Shown: piece after piece, positions 30,484 to 40,179 of the stretch
How positions within the stretch are numbered: the first letter of the stretch is position 1
Layout: each line of letters begins with the position of its first letter
From: Rhodococcus aetherivorans
Lineage (GTDB): Bacteria; Actinomycetota; Actinomycetes; Mycobacteriales; Mycobacteriaceae
Assembly (NCBI RefSeq): GCF_011058165.1
Contig: NZ_JAALEG010000033.1
Coordinates: forward strand, 1 to 53,827
Length of the DNA stretch: 53,827 bases
Reading direction: 5' to 3'
Notes under the pieces: model-generated
Seen by the model: only the letters and a program-made list of their open reading frames with translations
The model's database searches: none
What the model was told of the DNA's origin: nothing
Translations under genes and position numbers: made by a program

Positions 30484-30864
30484 TCAGTCCGCCGGATCCT
30501 GCTGGGCGGCCTCGGTGATCGGCGCCATGTCGAAGTAGTCGCGCCAGCCGGCGATCCTGCCGTCGACGACCTCGAAAGTCCCCATCACCGGCAGTTCGAC
30601 GGTCCGTCCCCCGAGCGTGAACACGTCGACCCGCTCGTTGAGCACCACGCCGCCGTGGACAGCCTGGTGCCGGATGCGGAAATCGATGCCGCCGAACGAG
30701 GCGACGAACCCGGCGATGAACTCCTCGATCGCCGCGCGCCCGCGCACCGGTTCCATCGGGATGTTGTGGTAGACGGCGTCGTCGGTGAAGTAGGACGCGA
30801 GCACGGCCGGGTCGGGATCGGCCCAACGGCGGCAGAATTCGGTGACGAGCTCGTCGGGGGTCAT
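30484..30864 (-). CDS. Limonene-1,2-epoxide hydrolase-family protein
   Basis: A 126-aa protein with the cone-shaped NTF2-like fold of the limonene-epoxide hydrolase family, which adds water to epoxides. The family Arg/Asp/Asp set is visible: Arg and Asp in LNERVDVFTLGGR and a later Asp in IAGWRDYFDMAP, with YFTDDAVYHNIPMEPVRGR near residue 30. M. tuberculosis EphG is a steroid-epoxide-active relative. It lies 13 bp behind the metallo-hydrolase gene, at the end of the cysD-led gene line. Substrate unknown; a non-catalytic SnoaL-like role cannot be excluded. Confidence 0.82.
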   Translation of the reverse strand: MTPDELVTEFCRRWADPDPAVLASYFTDDAVYHNIPMEPVRGRAAIEEFIAGFVASFGGIDFRIRHQAVHGGVVLNERVDVFTLGGRTVELPVMGTFEVVDGRIAGWRDYFDMAPITEAAQQDPAD

Positions 30865-30877
30865 GCGGTTCCTTCCG

Positions 30878-31873
30878 TCAGGCCCGGGCGAAGCGCGCCG
30901 GATCGGTGCCCGGGACCCGGCGCGCCCGGCCTCTCTCGATGAGGTGCCGCACGTGCGCCGAGGCCTCGGACAGCGCCATCTGCTTGCCCGTGGGCGGAGT
31001 CTGGTCCCAGGGGCGGTACCACGTCATCCGCTCGGCAGCCTGCCACAGCGTCAGCTCCTCGTCGCCGAACGCCGCGTACAGATCGTCGAGGCGTCGCTCG
31101 TGGTGCTCGACGAGCGCGTCGGTGCGGGCCGCGAGGTCGTCGATCGGCTGCCGGTGCGCGGGCAGGGTGCGCCGGGCCGGGAGCGTGCCGACGGCGCGCA
31201 GGGAGTCGATGAATTCGCCGAGGGCGTCGCGTTCGGGGAGGGGGAAATCGAAGTCGCCCACGTGCGGGGTCGTGGTGGCGAGGACGTGGTCGCCGCTGAA
31301 GAGGATGTCGTGCTCCTCGATGTAGAAGCAGGCGTGGCCGGGGGTGTGCCCGGGGGTGAACACTGTGCGCAGGGTGCGGCCGGCGAGCGTGATCCGTTCG
31401 TCGGTGGCGAGCTTGCGGTCGGGATGGACGTCGGGCTTGCCGGTTGCGCGTTCCCCGTTCACCCGGTCGAGGTAGGTGGTGATCTCGTCGTCCGGGGCGC
31501 CGGCGCGGCGCCACTGCTCGGCCTCCCACTCGGCGTTGCCGTCGCCGGAGATCATGAGCTCGAGCTGGCCGAAGTCGTCCTCGTGCATGCCGACCCAGCA
31601 GCCCGACGCCTCCCGGATCCGGCCGGTCAGACCGACGTGGTCGGGATGGAAGTGGGTGACGACGACCCCCTCGACGTCCGCGACGGAGGCGCCGACGGCG
31701 GCGAGGCCGTCCTGCAGCGCGGCCCAGGACGTGTCGTCGTTCCAGCCCACGTCGACGAGGACCAGCCCGCGCGGCGACTCCATCGCATACACCTGGGTGT
31801 CGCCGACCGGCAGGTCGCTCACCGGTACGGGGATGCGGTAGATGCCGTCGCCGATGTCGCGGGCGTGGTCCAT
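30878..31873 (-). CDS. Metallo-beta-lactamase-fold hydrolase
   Basis: A 331-aa MBL-fold hydrolase with a complete dinuclear metal site: THFHPDHVG (HxHxDH), TPGHTPGHA, FSGDHVL and LPAHRQP. A C-terminal helical region of about 100 residues (AAERMTWYRPWDQTPPTG, SEASAHVRHLIERG) matches the extension of many actinobacterial MBL hydrolases that act on thioesters or other acyl esters. The exact substrate is unknown. It begins 53 bp after cysQ, and that gap is AT-rich (GAACACAAACAGTAAACTATTT), so it may have its own promoter. Confidence 0.85.
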   Translation of the reverse strand: MDHARDIGDGIYRIPVPVSDLPVGDTQVYAMESPRGLVLVDVGWNDDTSWAALQDGLAAVGASVADVEGVVVTHFHPDHVGLTGRIREASGCWVGMHEDDFGQLELMISGDGNAEWEAEQWRRAGAPDDEITTYLDRVNGERATGKPDVHPDRKLATDERITLAGRTLRTVFTPGHTPGHACFYIEEHDILFSGDHVLATTTPHVGDFDFPLPERDALGEFIDSLRAVGTLPARRTLPAHRQPIDDLAARTDALVEHHERRLDDLYAAFGDEELTLWQAAERMTWYRPWDQTPPTGKQMALSEASAHVRHLIERGRARRVPGTDPARFARA

Positions 31874-31926: not shown

Positions 31927-33042
31927 CTATTTGGGTTCGTGCGGCTCGATGATCGCCATGATCGACCGGATCTCCCCCGCTGGGATGGCGAAGTGCTCGG
32001 TGACCGCCACGGTGAGGGTGCCGTCGCCGGCGTCGAGGTCGAGCAGGAACCGCGCGACGACGTTGTCGTCCCACTCGCGAAACGTCAGCTCCCGCACACG
32101 ACGGATCGAGCGGTACTCGGGGCCCTGCTCGAGCCGGTCGCGGATCTCGACGCCGCTGTCGCCGGTGCGCACGCCGTTCTCGACCCGCCACGCGTCGGCC
32201 GCGAGCCGCACGTGTGATGCGTCGTGTCCGACGAGGGAGCGGATGTAGGAGCGGGCCATGGCGACGCGGGCGCTGTCGGTGGGCGCGCCGGCATGCTCGG
32301 CGATCGCGGCCATCAGGGTCGGCGCCCAGTCCGGCCGGCAGATCACCAGGTCCGGCATGTAGGGGTGGGGGCGGTTGTACTCGAGCTCGCTGCCGTCGAT
32401 GCGGGCGCAGTACAGCCCCGCCGCCTGCGCGACCCCCACCGGCGCCGCGGAGTCCCACTCCCACTGCCCGCCGGCGTGCACGTAGGCATCGACGTCGCCA
32501 CGCACCACCGCCATGGCCTTGGCCCCGGCCGAACCCATCCGCACCACGTGGGCGCCGACGGCCCGGGCGACGTCGGCGACGAAGGCCGGCGGCCGGCTGC
32601 CGCTGACGACGATCCGGGGCCGTCGGCCGGCCAGCGGCCGCAGTTCGGCGGGACGGACGTCGTCGGTGCCGTAGACGGCACCGACGGCCGGCTGAGCGAC
32701 GGCGGCGGCGGTGATACCCCTGCCGGCCTCCCACAACGCGACGTGCACGGCCCAGTCCTCGTGGTCCGGCATGCCGTACTCCTTGGACCCGTCCAACGGG
32801 TCGACGATCCACACCCGCTTCGCGTGCACCCGCACCGGATCGTCGGCGGATTCCTCCGAGAGCACCGCGTCGCCGGGGCGCTCGGCGGCGAGCCGCTCGA
32901 GGATGTACGTATCGGCGGCGCGGTCGCCGCGGCGGCCGAGTTCGCGACCGGTGAGCGTGTCGGCCTCGGCCGCGCGGACGGTCAGCAACAGTTCGCCTGC
33001 AGCGGTGGCGATCTCGGCGGCGAGGGCGGCGTCATCGGTCAT
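31927..33042 (-). CDS. cysQ: 3'(2'),5'-bisphosphate nucleotidase CysQ fused to an NTF2-like domain
   Basis: The first 252 residues are CysQ of the inositol-monophosphatase fold, which removes the 3' phosphate of PAP (and PAPS) left by sulfotransferases. Metal-site motifs are [22 protein letters not shown] (DPxDGT/S type) and [20 protein letters not shown]. tuberculosis CysQ (267 aa) ends here. This protein runs on to 371 residues with an extra domain ([21 protein letters not shown] begins it) that resembles small SnoaL/NTF2-like proteins, with no stop or shift between. ATG 33042 overlaps the cysNC stop as ATGA. Confidence 0.9.
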
Positions 33043-34874
33043 GGGGCCAACAATTCCATGACCAGCCCGGCCTGTGCGACCGGATCGCCGTCCTGCGGCC
33101 GCAGCACCAGGTCCGGCCGGGTGGGCGCCTCGTAGGGGTCGTCGATACCGGTGAACCCGGTGATCTCCCCGGCCCGGGCCCGGGCGTACATGCCCTTCGG
33201 ATCGCGGGCCTCGCAGTCGGCGAGCGGGGTGTCGACGAACACCTCGAGGAACGGCAGCCCGGCCTCCCGGTGCTGCTCGCGGATCCGGTCCCGGTCGGAC
33301 CGGTACGGGCTGATGAGCGCGCAGATCGTCACCAGGCCCGCGTCGGCCATCAGCTGCGCCACCGCGCCGACGCGCCGGACGTTCTCCGCGCGGTCCCGCG
33401 GCCCGAAGCCGAGGTCGGCGTTGAGGCCGTGGCGCAGGTTGTCGCCGTCGAGCCGGTAGGCCGGGACACCGGCCGCGAGCAGGCGCCGCTCGAGCGCCGC
33501 GGCGACGGTGGACTTGCCCGACGCCGACAGGCCGGTCAGCCACACCGTCGCGCCGCGCGAGAGGCGTTCGGCGCGGGTCGCCTCCGCCGCGTGCCACACG
33601 ACGGGGGCGGCGGCGAGGGTGGGTCCGGTGATCATCCCGGCGGCGACGGTGCTGCCGGTCGCGTCGTCGACGAGCACGAAGCTGCCGGTGGTCCGGTTGC
33701 GCCGGTAGGGGTCGAACAGCACGGGACGGCGGGTCCGCAGCTGCACCCGTCCGATCTCGTTGAGGGTCAGCGATCGTGCCGTCCCGTCGCGGTGGAGGGT
33801 GGTGACGTCGAGCCGGTAGTCGAGCCGCACCACGTGCGCGGCGGTGGCGTTGGTGGTGTGCAGCAGGGTGTAGGTGGCGTCGGGTGCGAGACCCGGGCCC
33901 TCGGCGAGCCAGCACACCATCGCGTCGAGCTCGTGCCCGACGAGCGGGCGGTTCCCCGGGCGGCACAGCATGTCACCGCGGCCCACGTCGAGGTCGTCCT
34001 CGAGTTCGAGGCACACGGCGCTGCCCGCGAAGGCGCTCGGCACCGGGTCGCCGCCCGGTCCGTGGACGGCGCGCACACGCGTGCCGTAGCCCGAGGGCAG
34101 CACCACCACCTCGTCGCCGGGGGCGAACGCCCCGCTCGCGACGGTGCCGGCGTAGCCGCGGAAGTCGCGGTGCTCCCCGTGACCGGGGCGGAGCACGTAC
34201 TGGACGGGGAATCGCGCGTCGATGAGGTTGCGATCGGAGTCGATGTGCACCTGCTCGAGACGGTGCAGCAACGAGGCGCCCTCGTACCAGGTCATGGTGG
34301 TGGTGCGCGTGACGACGTTGTCGCCGAGCAGCGCCGACACCGGCACGAACGTCAGGTCGTGGATGTCGAGTTTGGCTGCGAACGAGGAGAATTCGGCGCA
34401 GATCTCGTCGAAGCGCTGTTGCGACCAGTCGACCAGGTCCATCTTGTTGACGCACAGCACGAGGTGGGGGACGCCGAGCAGGCTGGCGAGAAAGGCGTGC
34501 CGGCGGGTCTGCTCGACGATGCCCTTGCGGGCGTCGACGAGAATGAGGGCGAGGTCGGCGGTCGAGGCGCCGGTGACCATGTTCCGGGTGTACTGCTCGT
34601 GGCCGGGGGTGTCGGCGACGACGAAGGCGCGGTGCGGGGTACAGAAGTAGCGGTGGGCGACATCGATGGTGATGCCCTGTTCCCGCTCCGCCCGCAGTCC
34701 GTCGGTGAGCAGCGCCAGATCGGGGGTGTCCATGCCGCGCTCGCGGCTGGTGCGGGTGACGGCGTCGAGCTGGTCCTCGGGCACGGCCTTGGAATCGTGG
34801 AGCAACCGGCCGATCAGCGTGGACTTGCCGTCGTCGACGCTGCCGGCGGTGGCGATGCGCAGCAACCGGGTCAT
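33039..34874 (-). CDS. cysNC: Bifunctional sulfate adenylyltransferase GTPase subunit / APS kinase
   Basis: A 611-aa CysN-CysC fusion. The GTPase part (1 to about 420) has [28 protein letters not shown] and VNKMDLVDW, and drives APS formation with CysD. The APS kinase part starts at about residue 440 with its own P-loop, [15 protein letters not shown], then [10 protein letters not shown] and [12 protein letters not shown], and makes PAPS. ATG 34874 shares one base with the cysD stop (TGATG). With CysD and CysQ it forms a full PAPS-making and PAP-clearing set, with no reductase beside it. Confidence 0.96.
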
Positions 34875-35791
34875 CAGAAGTAGCCCTCCTTCTTGCGGTC
34901 TTCCATGCCGGCCTCGGAGATGCGGTCGTCGGCGCGGGTGGCGCCGCGCTCGGTGACGCGGCTGACGGCGACCTCGGCGACCACCTCGTCGGGGGTGGCG
35001 GCGGCGGATTCGACGCACCCCGTGCAGGTGGCGTCGCCCACCGTGCGGAACCGCACCAGCGCGTCGCGCGGCTCGTCGTCCGGCAGCAGAGCGAGGAACT
35101 CGTTGAGCGCCAGCAGCATTCCGTCGCGCTCGACGACGGTGCGGCGATGGGCGTAGTAGAGCGACGGCAGCTCGATGCCTTCGTCGCGGATGTAGTTCCA
35201 GACGTCGAGTTCGGTCCAGTTGGACAGCGGGAACACGCGGATGTGCTCACCGCGGCGGTGCCGGCCGTTGTACAGCTGCCACAGTTCGGGACGCTGCGCC
35301 TTGGGATCCCACTGCCCGAACTCGTCGCGGAAGGAGAACACGCGTTCCTTGGCGCGGGCCTTCTCCTCGTCGCGGCGGGCGCCGCCGAACACCGCGTCGA
35401 ATCCGCCTTCGCGGATGGCGCGCAACAGCGTTCGGGTCTGCAGCCGGTTGCGGCTCGCGCGCGGGCCGACGTCCTCGACGGCCCGGCCGGCGTCGATGTC
35501 GTCCTGCACCGAGGCGACCAGCAGGCGCACCCTCCGGCGGGCCGCCTCGGCGTCGCGGTAGGCGAGGACCTCGGGGAAGTTGTGGCCGGTGTCGATGTGC
35601 AGCACCGGAAACGGGATCGGCGCCGGCCAGAACGCCTTGGCCGCCACGTGCAGCATCACCGCGGAGTCCTTGCCTCCGGAGAAGAGCAGCACGGGACGTT
35701 CGAAGGTGGCCGCCACCTCCCGGAAGATGTGCACGGACTCGGCCTCGAGCGCGCGCAGCAGGGACAGTTCGTACGACGGCGTGAGGGTCAT
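34874..35791 (-). CDS. cysD: Sulfate adenylyltransferase subunit 2
   Basis: PP-loop adenylyltransferase (305 aa) forming APS from sulfate and ATP with CysN. The PP-loop is [16 protein letters not shown] near residue 38, then [32 protein letters not shown] and [15 protein letters not shown]. The C-terminus ends in the usual RKKEGYF. ATG 35791 has GGAG five bases upstream. It is first in the leftward operon; its promoter region carries a KstR-type box and a 20-bp palindromic element also found before the DUF1214 gene. Confidence 0.97.
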
Positions 35792-35812: not shown

Positions 35813-35832
35813 CCGGTCCAAATATGTACCGG
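35813..35832 (-). promoter_or_regulatory. 20-bp CCGGT-N10-ACCGG element upstream of cysD
   Basis: Read towards cysD the site is CCGGTACATATTTGGACCGG, with inverted 5-bp ends. It matches the site at 36972-36991 at 18 of 20 positions and in the same orientation to its gene. It lies 24 bases beyond the -10, so inside the predicted 5' leader. An operator for the neighbouring IclR protein is my inference. Confidence 0.7.
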
Positions 35833-35856: not shown

Positions 35857-35886
35857 ACAATAGAACGAGTTTCAGTTCCGGGTCAA
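35857..35886 (-). promoter_or_regulatory. cysD promoter
   Basis: On the minus strand: -35 TTGACC (35886-35881), 18-nt spacer, -10 TATTGT (35862-35857). The geometry is the same as at the DUF1214 promoter. A TNNAACNNGTTNNA palindrome overlaps the start of the -10. Confidence 0.7.
35861..35874. promoter_or_regulatory. KstR-type operator at the cysD promoter
   Basis: TAGAACGAGTTTCA fits TNNAACNNGTTNNA at all eight fixed positions. This is the consensus described for KstR, the TetR-family repressor of cholesterol catabolism in mycobacteria and rhodococci. It covers the spacer and the first two bases of the -10, a repressor position. Confidence 0.65.
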
Positions 35887-35979
35887 CGCCTCGCGGGGTG
35901 CGAGCGAATGTATCGCCCACTCGATCAGACCGACGGCATGATCCATTCGCTCGGTCCCCCGGGGCCGCAACACCCGGCC

Positions 35980-36027
35980 GTCACCGGGCCGGGCGACGCC
36001 CGCGTCACCGGGCCGGGCGACGCCCGC
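35980..36027. repeat. 24-bp perfect tandem duplication at the 3' end of iclR
   Basis: Units 35980-36003 and 36004-36027 are identical. The second holds the last codons (GRRPAR) and stop of iclR; the first repeats them just downstream. The coding sequence is not altered. Confidence 0.97.
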
Positions 36028-36919
36028 CGAGCTCGCGCGTGACGGCCTCGGCGGTGGCCACGAGGGCCGCCCCGCGCCGGGCGATCTCCCGGTTGGCCAG
36101 GGTCGCGCCCACGTGGAGCGTGAGCACCACCGACTGCCGCCCGTCCGCGTCGTAAGCGGGGGCGGCGAGCAGGTTCACCGGATGCTCGGCGTCGGCCGGT
36201 TCCGCCCCGGTCAGCAGCACCCGCTCCCCCAGGCTGGACACCATCTCCCCCAGCAGTTCGCGCAGCTCGGACGGCAGGTCGTGCGCGGCGACGCCCGCCA
36301 TGAGCGCGTGCAACCGCCGCCCGCCCGCGGTGAGCGACTCGACCAGGTATCCCGCGGTGCGGCACTCGTCGACCACGTCCCGCAGGCGGTCCCGGTCCAG
36401 CCGCACCGGAAGCGTCGGCTCGCGCGCGAGCCACTGCTCGAGCCGCTCGTCGGAGTCCCACAGCACGTACATCAGGCCCACCGGCGGCGCGAACGGATAG
36501 ACCTCTCCCACCCGCGCCCCGGCACCGTCCGGATCGGCCCCGGCGACGTCGAGGACCGCGATGCGGTCGCCCACCACCGCCGACGCGGCGCAGGTGGCAC
36601 CGAACTCGGCGCCGAGCGCGGCCAGGTGCCGGTGGGTGACGGGACCGACGGCGAAGCCGCGCTGCGCGGCGCGGCCCGCGACGATCAGCGCGGGACCGAG
36701 GCCGTACGTCCTGTCGGCGGGATGGCGCATCAGGTAGCCGGCCTCGGTCAGGGCGGTCAGGATCCCCAGGCACGTCGGCTTGCTCATGCCCAGCCGGCGC
36801 GCCAGCTCGGAGAGCCCGAACCGGGTCTCCGGGTGCGCGACCAGGTGGTCCAGGACCTGCACGACCCGATCGGTCGGCGGCGAACGCCGAGCGGACGACG
36901 TCGCGGCGGCCTCGGTCAT
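36005..36919 (-). CDS. IclR-family transcriptional regulator
   Basis: A 304-aa IclR regulator. The N-terminal winged helix-turn-helix is at about residues 17-75 (RVVQVLDHLVAHPETRFGLSELARRLGMSKPTCLGIL is its core, quoted here in parts: RVVQVLDHLVAH and LSELARRLGMSKPTCL). The C-terminal effector domain follows (HLAALGAEFGATCAASAV, VYPFAPPVGLMYVLW). ATG 36919 has AAGGAGG five bases upstream. It lies between two operons whose promoters share a 20-bp palindromic element, which makes it the obvious local regulator of both. Ligand unknown. Confidence 0.93.
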   Translation of the reverse strand: MTEAAATSSARRSPPTDRVVQVLDHLVAHPETRFGLSELARRLGMSKPTCLGILTALTEAGYLMRHPADRTYGLGPALIVAGRAAQRGFAVGPVTHRHLAALGAEFGATCAASAVVGDRIAVLDVAGADPDGAGARVGEVYPFAPPVGLMYVLWDSDERLEQWLAREPTLPVRLDRDRLRDVVDECRTAGYLVESLTAGGRRLHALMAGVAAHDLPSELRELLGEMVSSLGERVLLTGAEPADAEHPVNLLAAPAYDADGRQSVVLTLHVGATLANREIARRGAALVATAEAVTRELGGRRPAR

Positions 36920-36948
36920 TGACGCCTCCTTGGAACACGTTCTATCGT
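36919..36948 (+). promoter_or_regulatory. DUF1214-operon promoter
   Basis: On the plus strand: -35 TTGACG (36919-36924), 18-nt spacer, -10 TATCGT (36943-36948). It starts at the last base of the divergent iclR start codon. Geometry matches the cysD promoter. Confidence 0.7.
36931..36944. promoter_or_regulatory. KstR-type operator at the DUF1214 promoter
   Basis: TGGAACACGTTCTA fits TNNAACNNGTTNNA at all eight fixed positions and is close to a perfect palindrome. It covers the spacer and the first two bases of the -10, exactly as at cysD. Confidence 0.7.
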
Positions 36949-36971: not shown

Positions 36972-36991
36972 CCGGTACATATTTGAACCGC
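36972..36991 (+). promoter_or_regulatory. 20-bp CCGGT-N10-ACCG element upstream of DUF1214 gene
   Basis: CCGGTACATATTTGAACCGC matches the cysD site at 18 of 20 positions. It begins 23 bases beyond the -10 and ends directly at the AAGGAG ribosome-binding site (36992-36997). It could be an IclR operator; it also lies in the leader, where it could affect initiation. Confidence 0.7.
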
Positions 36992-37002
36992 AAGGAGATC
37001 GT

Positions 37003-38169
37003 GTGCTCACCGATCCGCTCACATCCGCCATCGCCGAGGCCGAGAAGCTCGTCGCGACGGCGCCGCACATCCGCACCGAGCAGGACCTGATCGAGGGGTA
37101 CCGCTACCTCGCCGGCGGGATCACCGCCTGCGTCCACTCGGCGTGGGCGGCCGAGAGCCCCCACCCCACGTTCGTCACCGGCACCGGGCCCTACACGAAG
37201 ATGGGGCTCGACAACCCCGACACCCTCTACTTCGGGGCGCGCATCCGCGACGACGCCGAGTACGTCGTCACCGGCCGCCGCGGCACCACCTGCGACCTGA
37301 GCTTCCAGGTGCTCGCCGGCAACTACACCGACGCCGAGGTACCCGGCAACGTCACCGCGTTCGACGACCGCGAGCTGCGCATCGCCGACGACGGCACCTT
37401 CGAGGCCCGGTTCGGTCCCGGCCCTGCCGACCCCGGGAACAACTACTTCACCCTCGCCCCCGGCTCGTCCCAGCTCGTCGTCCGGGAGGTCTACAGCGAC
37501 TGGTCCCAGCGGCGCGGCACCCTGCGCATCGACCGGGTCGACGCGCTCGGCACACCGCCGCCCGAGCCGACGCAGGACGACGCCGCCGCTCGCTACCGGC
37601 GGGCCGGGCGCGCGCTCGTGTCCCGGGTGCGGACGTGGCTGCAGTTCCCGCAGTGGTTCTACCTCGACCTTCCGGTCAACACGGTCACCGAACCGCGGCC
37701 GACGCCCGGCGGCCTGGCCACCCAGTACTCGTCCGTCGGACACTTCGACCTGCGCGACGACGAGGCGATGATCCTCACCGTCCCCGCCTCCGACGCGCCC
37801 TACCAGGGCTTCCAGCTGGGCAGCCTCTGGTATATCTCGCTCGACTACATCCACCACCAGACGTCGCTGAACAACACACAGGCCCAGGTCGATCCGGACG
37901 GGATGATCCGCATGGTCGTCTCCGCCCGCAATCCCGGCGTCGCCAACTGGGTCGAGACCCTGGGCCGCAGCCGCGGGTTCCTGCAGTTCCGCTGGCAGCG
38001 CCTCTCCCGCGACCTCACGACCGCGGACGGCCCGACGGCCCGGGTGGTCCCGTTCGACGACCTGGCCGCGGCACTGCCGTTCCTCGACCACAACCGGGTC
38101 ACGCCCCAGCAGTGGTCCGCGCGGATCGCCGCCCGCCAGACCGCGATCGCCGACCGGATGCTCGGGTGA
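37003..38169 (+). CDS. DUF1214 domain protein
   Basis: A 388-aa protein of the DUF1214 type, biochemical role unknown. Conserved stretches are GYRYLAGGITACVHSAW near residue 33, GLDNPDTLYFGARI, FPQWFYLDLPVN and YQGFQLGSLWYISLDY in the C-terminal part. No signal peptide or membrane helix is evident. GTG 37003 has AAGGAG at 36992-36997; the frame is open further up, but that would run through the promoter. It is the first gene of a three-gene operon with an SDR enzyme and a sulfotransferase, overlapping the SDR gene by four bases. Confidence 0.85.
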   Translation: MLTDPLTSAIAEAEKLVATAPHIRTEQDLIEGYRYLAGGITACVHSAWAAESPHPTFVTGTGPYTKMGLDNPDTLYFGARIRDDAEYVVTGRRGTTCDLSFQVLAGNYTDAEVPGNVTAFDDRELRIADDGTFEARFGPGPADPGNNYFTLAPGSSQLVVREVYSDWSQRRGTLRIDRVDALGTPPPEPTQDDAAARYRRAGRALVSRVRTWLQFPQWFYLDLPVNTVTEPRPTPGGLATQYSSVGHFDLRDDEAMILTVPASDAPYQGFQLGSLWYISLDYIHHQTSLNNTQAQVDPDGMIRMVVSARNPGVANWVETLGRSRGFLQFRWQRLSRDLTTADGPTARVVPFDDLAAALPFLDHNRVTPQQWSARIAARQTAIADRMLG

Positions 38170-38969
38170 GCGCCGTGACCACCACCCCGAGCCCCCTGCT
38201 CGCCGGACAGACCGTCGTGGTCAGCGGCGTCGGGCCCGGACTCGGCCGCACCCTTGCGGTGCGGTGCGCCGAGCACGGCGCCGACGTCGTGCTCGCCGCC
38301 CGCACCGCCGCCCGCCTCGACGACGTCGCGGCCGAGATCACCGCCCTGGGCCGGCGCGCCCTGTCCGTCCCGACCGACATCACCGACACCGGCTCCGCGT
38401 CCCGGCTGGTCGAGACGGCCCTCCGCGAGTTCGGCCGGGTCGACACCCTGGTCAACAACGCCTTCTCGGTTCCGTCGATGAAACCGTTGGCACGCACCGA
38501 CTTCCAGCACATCCGCGACAGCGTGGAACTCACCGTCCTCGGCGCGCTGCGCCTGACCCAACTGTTCACCGACGCCCTGACCGAGACGAAGGGCTCGGTG
38601 GTGAACATCAATTCGATGGTGCTGCGACACTCGCAGGAGCGCTACGGCAGCTACAAGCTGGCCAAGTCGGCCCTGCTCGCGCTGTCACAGTCCCTCGCCA
38701 CCGAGCTCGGCCCTCACGGAATCCGAGTCAATTCCGTTGCCCCCGGCTATATCTGGGGAGAAACCCTGAAGGCGTACTTCGAGCACCAGGCAGAGAAGTA
38801 CGGCACCACCGTCGAACAGATCTACCAGCACACCGCGGCGGGCACCGACCTCAAACGCCTGCCCACCACCGAGGAGGTGGCCGACGCCGTGATCTTCCTC
38901 GCCTCCCCGCTGGCGCGGGCCGTCACCGGCCAGTGCCTGGACGTGAACTGCGGCGAATACCACCACTGA
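38166..38969 (+). CDS. Short-chain dehydrogenase/reductase
   Basis: A 267-aa classical SDR. The cofactor motif is VVSGVGPGLGRTLA (GxxxGxG) near residue 18, NNAFSVPS follows in place of the usual NNAG, and the catalytic Ser is in VVNINSMVLR with Tyr/Lys in YGSYKLAKSALL. APGYIWGETL sits in the substrate-loop region. Basic and Arg residues after strand 2 (LAARTAARLDD) suggest NADP(H), though this is uncertain. GTG 38166 overlaps the DUF1214 stop as GTGA. It probably oxidises or reduces the alcohol/ketone group of the molecule that the sulfotransferase then modifies (inference). Confidence 0.92.
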   Translation: MSAVTTTPSPLLAGQTVVVSGVGPGLGRTLAVRCAEHGADVVLAARTAARLDDVAAEITALGRRALSVPTDITDTGSASRLVETALREFGRVDTLVNNAFSVPSMKPLARTDFQHIRDSVELTVLGALRLTQLFTDALTETKGSVVNINSMVLRHSQERYGSYKLAKSALLALSQSLATELGPHGIRVNSVAPGYIWGETLKAYFEHQAEKYGTTVEQIYQHTAAGTDLKRLPTTEEVADAVIFLASPLARAVTGQCLDVNCGEYHH

Positions 38970-39030: not shown

Positions 39031-40179
39031 ATGAGTGAACGCACCAGCGTCGGCACCGTCGAGGACCTGCACGCCTCCGCGACGCGGCTGACCGGCCTGA
39101 CCGACTTCGGCGACGACGACTACACCGGGGCCCTCGGCGTCCTCCTCGACTCGTATGCGCGCGACGAACACCTCACCCCGCTCGGCAGCAAGATGTCGCG
39201 GGTGTTCCTGCGCGGCGCCCTCGTCGCGCGGCTGCTGAGCGAATCGGCCTGGCGCGCGCACCCCGAGCACGCCGACGTCGCGATCGAACGGCCGATCTTC
39301 GTCACCGGCCTCCCCCGCACCGGCACCACCGCGCTGCACCGCCTGCTCACCGCCGACCCCGGCCACCAGGGACTCGAGATGTGGCTGACCGAGCTGCCGC
39401 AGCCACGGCCGCCGCGCGAGACGTGGGCCGGGAACCCGGCGTTCGCGGCCATCGAGGCCGGGTTCGCGCAGCACCACGTCGAGCACCCGGAGTTCATGGG
39501 TGTGCACTACATGTCCGCCGGCGAGGTCGAGGAGTGCTGGCAGCTGCTGCGGCAGTCCTTCCGATCGGTGTCCTACGAATGCCTCGCGCACCTGCCCACC
39601 TACTCGCGCTGGCTCGCGCGGCAGGACTGGACCGGAGCGTACGCCCGGCACCGCCGGAACCTGCAGCTGATCGGGCTGCCCGACGCCGGCAAGCGCTGGG
39701 TCCTGAAGAACCCGAGCCACCTGTTCGCACTCGACGAACTGCTCACCGTCTACCCCGACGCGCTGATCGTCGTCACCCACCGCGACCCGCGCACCGTGAT
39801 CCCGTCGGTGTGCAGCCTGGCCGCGCACGCCACCGACGGCTGGTCGCACACCTTCCGGGGCGCGAGCCTCGGGCGCAGCCAGCTCGACCTGTGGGCGCGC
39901 GGGCTCGACACGTTCACCGCGGCACGGAGCCGGCACCACCCGGATCGGTTCGTCGACGTGGACTACCGCGACTTCGTCGCCGATCCCCTCGGCACGGTCG
40001 GCGCGATCTACGACCGGTTCGGCATCCCGCTCACCGCCGGCGCCGAACAGGCGATGGCCGCGCTGCACGCCGAGAGCCGCAGCGGGGATCGCCGGCCGGC
40101 GCACCGCTACCGGCTCGAGGATTTCGGTCTGAGCGACGCCGAGGTGGACGAGCGGTTCCCGGACTACGCCTGTCGCTGA
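39031..40179 (+). CDS. PAPS-dependent sulfotransferase (Sulfotransfer_3 type)
   Basis: A 382-aa sulfotransferase moving sulfonate from PAPS to an acceptor hydroxyl. The 5'-phosphosulfate loop is IFVTGLPRTGTTALHRLL near residue 90. The 3'-phosphate region is VVTHRDPRTVIPSVCSLAA. KNPSHLFALDELLTVYPDA and VDVDYRDFVADPLGTV complete the fold. It is cytoplasmic, with no signal peptide. ATG 39031 is preceded by GGAAGGGAG. Together with CysD, CysNC and CysQ nearby it forms a complete PAPS cycle. The 3' end overlaps the convergent phosphatase gene by 16 bp. Acceptor unknown. Confidence 0.92.
   Translation: MSERTSVGTVEDLHASATRLTGLTDFGDDDYTGALGVLLDSYARDEHLTPLGSKMSRVFLRGALVARLLSESAWRAHPEHADVAIERPIFVTGLPRTGTTALHRLLTADPGHQGLEMWLTELPQPRPPRETWAGNPAFAAIEAGFAQHHVEHPEFMGVHYMSAGEVEECWQLLRQSFRSVSYECLAHLPTYSRWLARQDWTGAYARHRRNLQLIGLPDAGKRWVLKNPSHLFALDELLTVYPDALIVVTHRDPRTVIPSVCSLAAHATDGWSHTFRGASLGRSQLDLWARGLDTFTAARSRHHPDRFVDVDYRDFVADPLGTVGAIYDRFGIPLTAGAEQAMAALHAESRSGDRRPAHRYRLEDFGLSDAEVDERFPDYACR

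Follow-up and report, generated by a model that had tools for sequence, protein, structure and literature searches.

Shared KstR-type operators and a second dyad point to probable two-signal control of a sulfation locus in Rhodococcus aetherivorans

Why should genes for sulfate activation and genes for a putative sulfotransfer unit carry the same palindrome in their promoters, and which regulator would read it? The question is raised by a locus of Rhodococcus aetherivorans within the window analysed here, a 53,827-nucleotide stretch (contig NZ_JAALEG010000033.1, positions 1 to 53,827) of a 6.43-Mb genome (G000). In this locus, cysD, encoding sulfate adenylyltransferase subunit 2 (34874..35791, reverse strand; TIGR02039, 449 bits, cut-off 396.6), and a gene for a DUF1214-like protein (37003..38169, forward strand) are transcribed divergently, and a gene for an IclR-family regulator (36005..36919, reverse strand; PF09339, 36.1 bits, cut-off 22) lies between their promoters. 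From sequence comparison we propose, with a probability of roughly 0.75, that the two palindromes are operators of KstR, the repressor of cholesterol catabolism, that a second dyad found in both leaders is an operator of the IclR-family protein, and that the locus is under two-signal control.

The architecture described in an initial annotation of this DNA was confirmed on the sequence, in that both promoters have the form TTGAC(C/G)-N18-TAT(T/C)GT with an 18-bp spacer. The cysD promoter, TTGACC-N18-TATTGT, occupies 35857..35886 on the reverse strand (TTGACC at 35886-35881, TATTGT at 35862-35857), and that of the DUF1214 arm, TTGACG-N18-TATCGT, occupies 36919..36948 on the forward strand (TTGACG at 36919-36924, TATCGT at 36943-36948). 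Each is overlapped at its -10 element by a KstR-type operator, TAGAACGAGTTTCA at 35861..35874 (reverse strand) and TGGAACACGTTCTA at 36931..36944 (forward strand), and direct reading agrees with the annotation that both boxes end on the second base of the -10. They fit the consensus TNNAACNNGTTNNA in full, although the description of them as perfect palindromes does not hold letter by letter. No other match to the consensus occurs in the window, where 0.05 would be expected by chance, and 0 of 100 shuffles of the window gave two matches, in line with the earlier estimate of well under one. A matrix built from published mycobacterial KstR sites (training scores 19.1 to 33.1, median 26.5) gives the cysD box 20.5 and the DUF1214-arm box 19.5, the two highest scores anywhere in the window (next 12.5). 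The boxes might be chance or generic promoter matches, as 8 bases of the consensus are fixed and the 6.43-Mb genome contains 38 sites, including some within long open frames; against this stand the 0.05 expected in the window and the position relative to TTGAC, which is kept across genera, and we reject a chance origin as having next to no likelihood.

A regulator to which such sites could belong is encoded elsewhere in the genome. A KstR equivalog gene (NF033703, 332 bits, cut-off 280) is located at C216:107879-108424, and residues 12-209 of the 221 in its product align with the solved M. tuberculosis KstR (E 7e-85). The two proteins are identical in the stretch VAVGTLYRYFPSK, which we take to be the recognition-helix region. 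A perfect box, TAGAACGTGTTCTA, starts 57 bases ahead of the kstR frame, and other boxes on the same contig adjoin HsaA and a steroid 3-ketoacyl-CoA thiolase. The 38 genomic sites of the TNNAACNNGTTNNA pattern compare with 8 for a backwards control pattern; a TTGAC element 10-14 bases before the site is found at 0 of the genome's 36 other sites, and the stretch C216:55001-70000 contains no site.

The KstR regulon of M. tuberculosis and M. smegmatis matches the present locus in consensus, in the operator over the putative -10, in the repressor equivalog and in a DUF1214-like target. Kendall 2007 located the KstR motif over the putative -10 element, reported gel-shift binding by KstR at Rv3531c/Rv3532 and found MSMEG_5932, listed under the same footnote (m) as Rv3531c, to be 6-fold de-repressed in an M. 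smegmatis kstR mutant (PMC1995591). The gene at 37003..38169 was identified as an orthologue of MSMEG_5932 by an orthologue search and through the published primers for that gene: these encode TSLNGT and KGYLQF, motifs of the DUF1214-like family, and the counterparts QTSLNNT and RGFLQF, at a distance of 38 residues, stand in the window protein as well as in the five Mycobacterium orthologues that were checked. For the label DUF1214 of the initial annotation, the match to PF06742 (18.9 bits) lies below the cut-off of 25, and we therefore use the term DUF1214-like. Since the primer-encoded motifs agree with the orthologues and de-repression has been published, the DUF1214 arm is already known in mycobacteria to be controlled by KstR. 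For the cysD arm, our searches of the open-licence literature turned up no account of a KstR box and, by title and start of abstract, none linking KstR or cholesterol with a sulfotransferase, cysD, IclR or sulfate adenylyltransferase. Unlike the mycobacterial regulon, the operon studied here lies on a different contig from kstR and has its own cysD-cysNC pair, an iclR gene and a second operator common to both arms. KstR and the DUF1214-like gene also occur together: across 101 family genomes, a strong DUF1214-like orthologue occurs in 70 of the 78 that have KstR and in 0 of the 23 that lack it, and KstR is present in 70 of 70 genomes with a strong orthologue. Two of 72 orthologue genomes, both with KstR, were excluded from these counts, G008 having a 32% match only and G014 a fragment in a genome that is 66% complete.

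How far the boxes follow the locus was examined in two sets of relatives. The named set comprises the best 80 of at least 581 relatives with a DUF1214-like gene, 79 of which were scored on the DUF1214 arm (one locus was too short), and the family set comprises 70 of 75 full-length orthologue places in the 101 family genomes. As box cut-off we took the 99th percentile of 1427 control windows, a matrix score of 8.1; the control maximum was 30.1, and some control windows therefore contain real boxes. A DUF1214-arm box was found in 64/79 named loci (47/52 with iclR, 17/27 without) and in 45/70 loci of the family set (38/46 with iclR, 7/24 without), and a cysD-arm box in 47/58 named loci (42/47 with iclR, 5/11 without). 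TTGAC precedes the box by 11 or 12 bases in 60 of these 64 DUF1214-arm and 44 of the 47 cysD-arm cases in the named set. Where present, the cysD boxes of Amycolatopsis, Prauserella, Kibdelosporangium and iclR-bearing Nocardia are one-letter variants of the consensus. The iclR-less named loci with a DUF1214-arm box include 9/9 Mycobacterium and 4/4 Prauserella, and 7 of the 10 iclR-less named DUF1214 promoters that are boxless belong to Nocardia in which cysD-cysNC is turned round. The latter seven loci (L130, L135, L143, L149, L156, L165 and L174) have an IclR-type gene of 30-33% identity nearby and share the element TCGAATATTCGA in their cysD leaders (one letter off in L156), which is perhaps the mark of a regulator swap.

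Both leaders contain a further dyad, a candidate IclR operator recovered by strict and lax dyad searches: GGTACATATTTGGACC at 35815..35830 (reverse strand) in the cysD leader and GGTACATATTTGAACC at 36974..36989 (forward strand) in that of the DUF1214 arm. The strict form GGTNCANATNTGNACC has two exact copies in the 6.43-Mb genome, both at this locus. In the DUF1214 arm of the named set, the lax form GNTNCANNNNTGNANC is present in 41/52 loci with iclR versus 0/27 without (Fisher 1e-12, kinship ignored), in the family set in 41/46 versus 0/24, and among control windows in 4/1457; in the cysD arm of the named set, it occurs in 18/47 loci with iclR and 0/11 without. One locus with the dyad but no visible iclR, L125, was left out of these counts because its short contig begins just before the dyad. 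The 11 misses among iclR-bearing DUF1214 arms consist of nine Amycolatopsis loci with CG for CA and of L117 and L118, which read GTTCCATATTTCGAAC. Spacing between box and dyad is narrow, at 44 bp in 35/47 DUF1214 arms (43-46 bp in 45/47) and at 42-50 bp in 15/16 cysD arms. In addition, among the 47 IclR matches with 47% identity or more in the 101 family genomes, 46 adjoin a DUF1214-like orthologue (hand count). The two sites also come apart in nature: L099 has a perfect box, a degenerate dyad and no iclR match, and L112, L120 and L124 have iclR and the dyad and retain the cysD-arm box but lack the DUF1214-arm box. Because the dyad tracks iclR more sharply and box and dyad are separated in these four loci, their distribution makes KstR the most likely binder of the box and the IclR-family protein that of the dyad.

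The same counts bear on the idea that it is the IclR-family protein, with no involvement of KstR, that occupies the TNNAACNNGTTNNA boxes. Some IclR-family sites have TGAAAC-type half-sites, the iclR gene sits between the boxes, and the boxes are commoner beside it (47/52 versus 17/27; Fisher 0.006, kinship ignored), but they persist in 17 of the 27 named loci without iclR, are missing from the DUF1214 arm of L112, L120 and L124 despite iclR, and follow the gene less tightly than the dyad does. Together with the published binding of KstR to the same consensus (PMC1995591), this makes IclR a very improbable binder of the boxes, and we disfavour it. KstR, as the annotation had it, is supported by the kstR gene, the boxes at iclR-less loci, the separation of box and dyad, the co-occurrence and the repression in M. 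smegmatis; this account was nonetheless incomplete, as it omitted the iclR gene at 36005-36919 and the second dyad common to both arms.

The dyad lies at about +20 to +35 from a start inferred from the -10 element, and this position within the leader would also suit an RNA hairpin or another leader element, with KstR acting at the box. Among 69 copies of the dyad (21 distinct), however, the bases at stem position 4/13 fail to pair in 31 and those at 7/10 in 60, which disfavours a hairpin, and the presence of the dyad follows the iclR gene; we consider a leader element rather unlikely. As an operator, the dyad occupies a position that would be more usual for a road-block repressor than for an activator. 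The product of 36005-36919 is called IclR-family by its helix-turn-helix (HTH) domain only, because the Pfam effector-binding C-terminal domain was not matched at 1e-3. It resembles local regulators of this family represented by the PcaR/PobR, KdgR and BhcR models in its HTH domain, in a gene divergent from the operon and in a short dyad as likely operator. It differs from these systems in that its scores with all three models fall well short of the cut-offs, the dyad is situated downstream of the promoter, and a KstR box is present in each arm as well.

Several observations weigh against assigning the boxes to KstR and the dyad to the IclR-family protein. With scores of 20.5 and 19.5, the window boxes fall within the published range of 19.1-33.1 but near its floor, and in the genome scan that the annotation had envisaged, their rank is middling, 15th and 17th of 38 sites, each tied with the next; both results come from a mycobacterial matrix. 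The preference of the boxes for loci with iclR has been given above, and 17/24 iclR-less family loci have no box just upstream; in 13 of these 17 a consensus site lies 2.9 to 3.0 kb further up, and in 4 there is none within 3.5 kb. L118 has iclR, yet a box in neither arm; the cysD-arm box fails in L102, L107, L114 and L161; and two of the cysD boxes counted are doubtful, those of L117 (score 9.1) and L130, one of the turned-round Nocardia. The lax dyad is found in just 18 of 47 iclR-bearing cysD arms, none of them from Nocardia or Amycolatopsis. All counts ignore kinship, and some species are represented in both the named and the family set. Finally, a KstR-like paralogue at C99:75482-76024 (197.8 bits, below the cut-off of 280) adjoins two boxes at 76186-76221 (L007), and this protein or another paralogue might control the twin promoters in place of KstR. 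Yet matches to the KstR model above 150 bits but below the cut-off are listed for only 13 of the 101 family genomes (hand count), boxes are also present in other genomes (G021, G064 and G015 among them), and in M. smegmatis it is KstR that has been published as repressing the orthologue (PMC1995591), so that we regard control by a paralogue as improbable and retain KstR.

Based on this assignment, we propose the following hypothetical mechanism for two-signal control, in which (i) KstR would cover the -10 element and spacer of both promoters and block RNA polymerase; (ii) a CoA thioester of an early cholesterol metabolite, the ligand class reported for KstR (PMC8228715), would release it; (iii) the dyad about 44 bp beyond the box in both leaders would serve the IclR-family protein, whose gene lies between the arms, as its operator; (iv) two signals would be needed, steroid catabolism sensed via KstR and a local metabolite via IclR; (v) with both relieved, cysD-cysNC would make 3'-phosphoadenosine 5'-phosphosulfate (PAPS); and (vi) the divergent operon of DUF1214-like gene, short-chain dehydrogenase/reductase (SDR) and sulfotransferase would spend PAPS on a steroid or a steroid-induced acceptor. 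We infer the binding of KstR and of IclR at these sites, the sign of the IclR effect, the use of PAPS and the nature of the product, and steroids would, as the annotation implied, induce the locus in this strain. Twin promoters with two separable operators would form a compact two-input switch, and natural variants keep just one of the two operators.

What the locus does can be approached through its genes. cysNC (33039..34874, reverse strand; family match), encoding sulfate adenylyltransferase subunit 1 fused to adenosine 5'-phosphosulfate (APS) kinase, has a start that overlaps the cysD stop. On the other arm, the putative SDR gene (38166..38969, forward strand), assigned from its sequence, the overlap of its frame with the DUF1214-like gene and co-occurrence, is followed by a PF13469 sulfotransferase (39031..40179, forward strand; 212.9 bits). 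The sulfotransferase carries the PAPS-binding loop GLPRTGTT; the strict loop is kept in 70/79 named relatives, and the other 9, of which 8 are Mycobacterium, read TGL(V/S)RTGTT, with P replaced by V or S. Another copy of cysD, on C166, adjoins a weak CysD-like match, possibly cysH; no KstR box lies within 1.5 kb of this copy (best matrix score 0.3), and the 3.9 kb examined there are free of the dyad. Together with the operators common to both arms, these features suggest a dedicated PAPS supply and sulfotransfer linked to steroids, and a coupling of sulfation to steroid breakdown.

All 9 named Mycobacterium loci have SDR and sulfotransferase orthologues behind the DUF1214-like gene, and we take Rv3530c and Rv3529c to be the SDR and the sulfotransferase of the mycobacterial unit. 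In a published account, Rv3531c is just a hypothetical protein, Rv3530c a possible oxidoreductase and Rv3529c a conserved hypothetical protein (PMC6429209). A KstR-regulon gene that is hypothetical in mycobacteria is here tied to its own sulfate-activation genes through shared operators, which gives a gene so far known as KstR-controlled and of unknown function a specific hypothesis that is cheap to test: PAPS-dependent sulfation in the course of steroid breakdown. Tentatively, many actinobacteria may possess a productive or detoxifying sulfation step in steroid catabolism, in which a KstR-controlled DUF1214-like/SDR/sulfotransferase unit would sulfate a steroid-derived hydroxyl; Rhodococcus, Nocardia and Amycolatopsis would add a KstR-controlled PAPS supply, and many also an IclR protein that senses substrate or product. 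A comparable arrangement is the CysN2C/CysD2 system of R. qingshengii IGTS8, a second, APS-kinase-fused activation complex beside a sulfotransferase for which a PAPS supply has been proposed (PMC8557817). That system differs in its context of dibenzothiophene desulfurization and in having the sulfotransferase Stf0 next to cysD2, and the available part of the report names neither KstR nor iclR (PMC8557817); it is probably another locus than that of the window.

Beyond cysNC, the cysD arm continues on the reverse strand with an inositol-monophosphatase-family gene (CysQ-like; 31927..33042; PF00459, searched on 31927-33000), which has an ATGA overlap with cysNC, a metallo-beta-lactamase-fold hydrolase (30878..31873; PF00753) and a limonene-epoxide-hydrolase (LEH)/SnoaL-like protein (30484..30864; PF07858, PF12680). 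Elsewhere in the genome, the box at C62:2740-2753 (L005) is part of a longer inverted repeat, AACCTCCGTTGCTAGAACGTGTTCTAGCAACGGAGGTT, whose arms are fully matched save for two central bases. The sites at C205:34721, C206:20820 and C210:11693 (L056, L058, L059) are identical over the 42 bases compared, contain one and the same palindrome within a long open frame, and are probably a repeated element. High-scoring boxes lie by genes for an Rv3520c-type F420 oxidoreductase (L014, C154:48108), a PaaE-like reductase (L060, C214:16304), a wax-ester synthase (L057, C205:85716) and a FadD8-like ligase (L020, C177:26710), which are likely further KstR targets.
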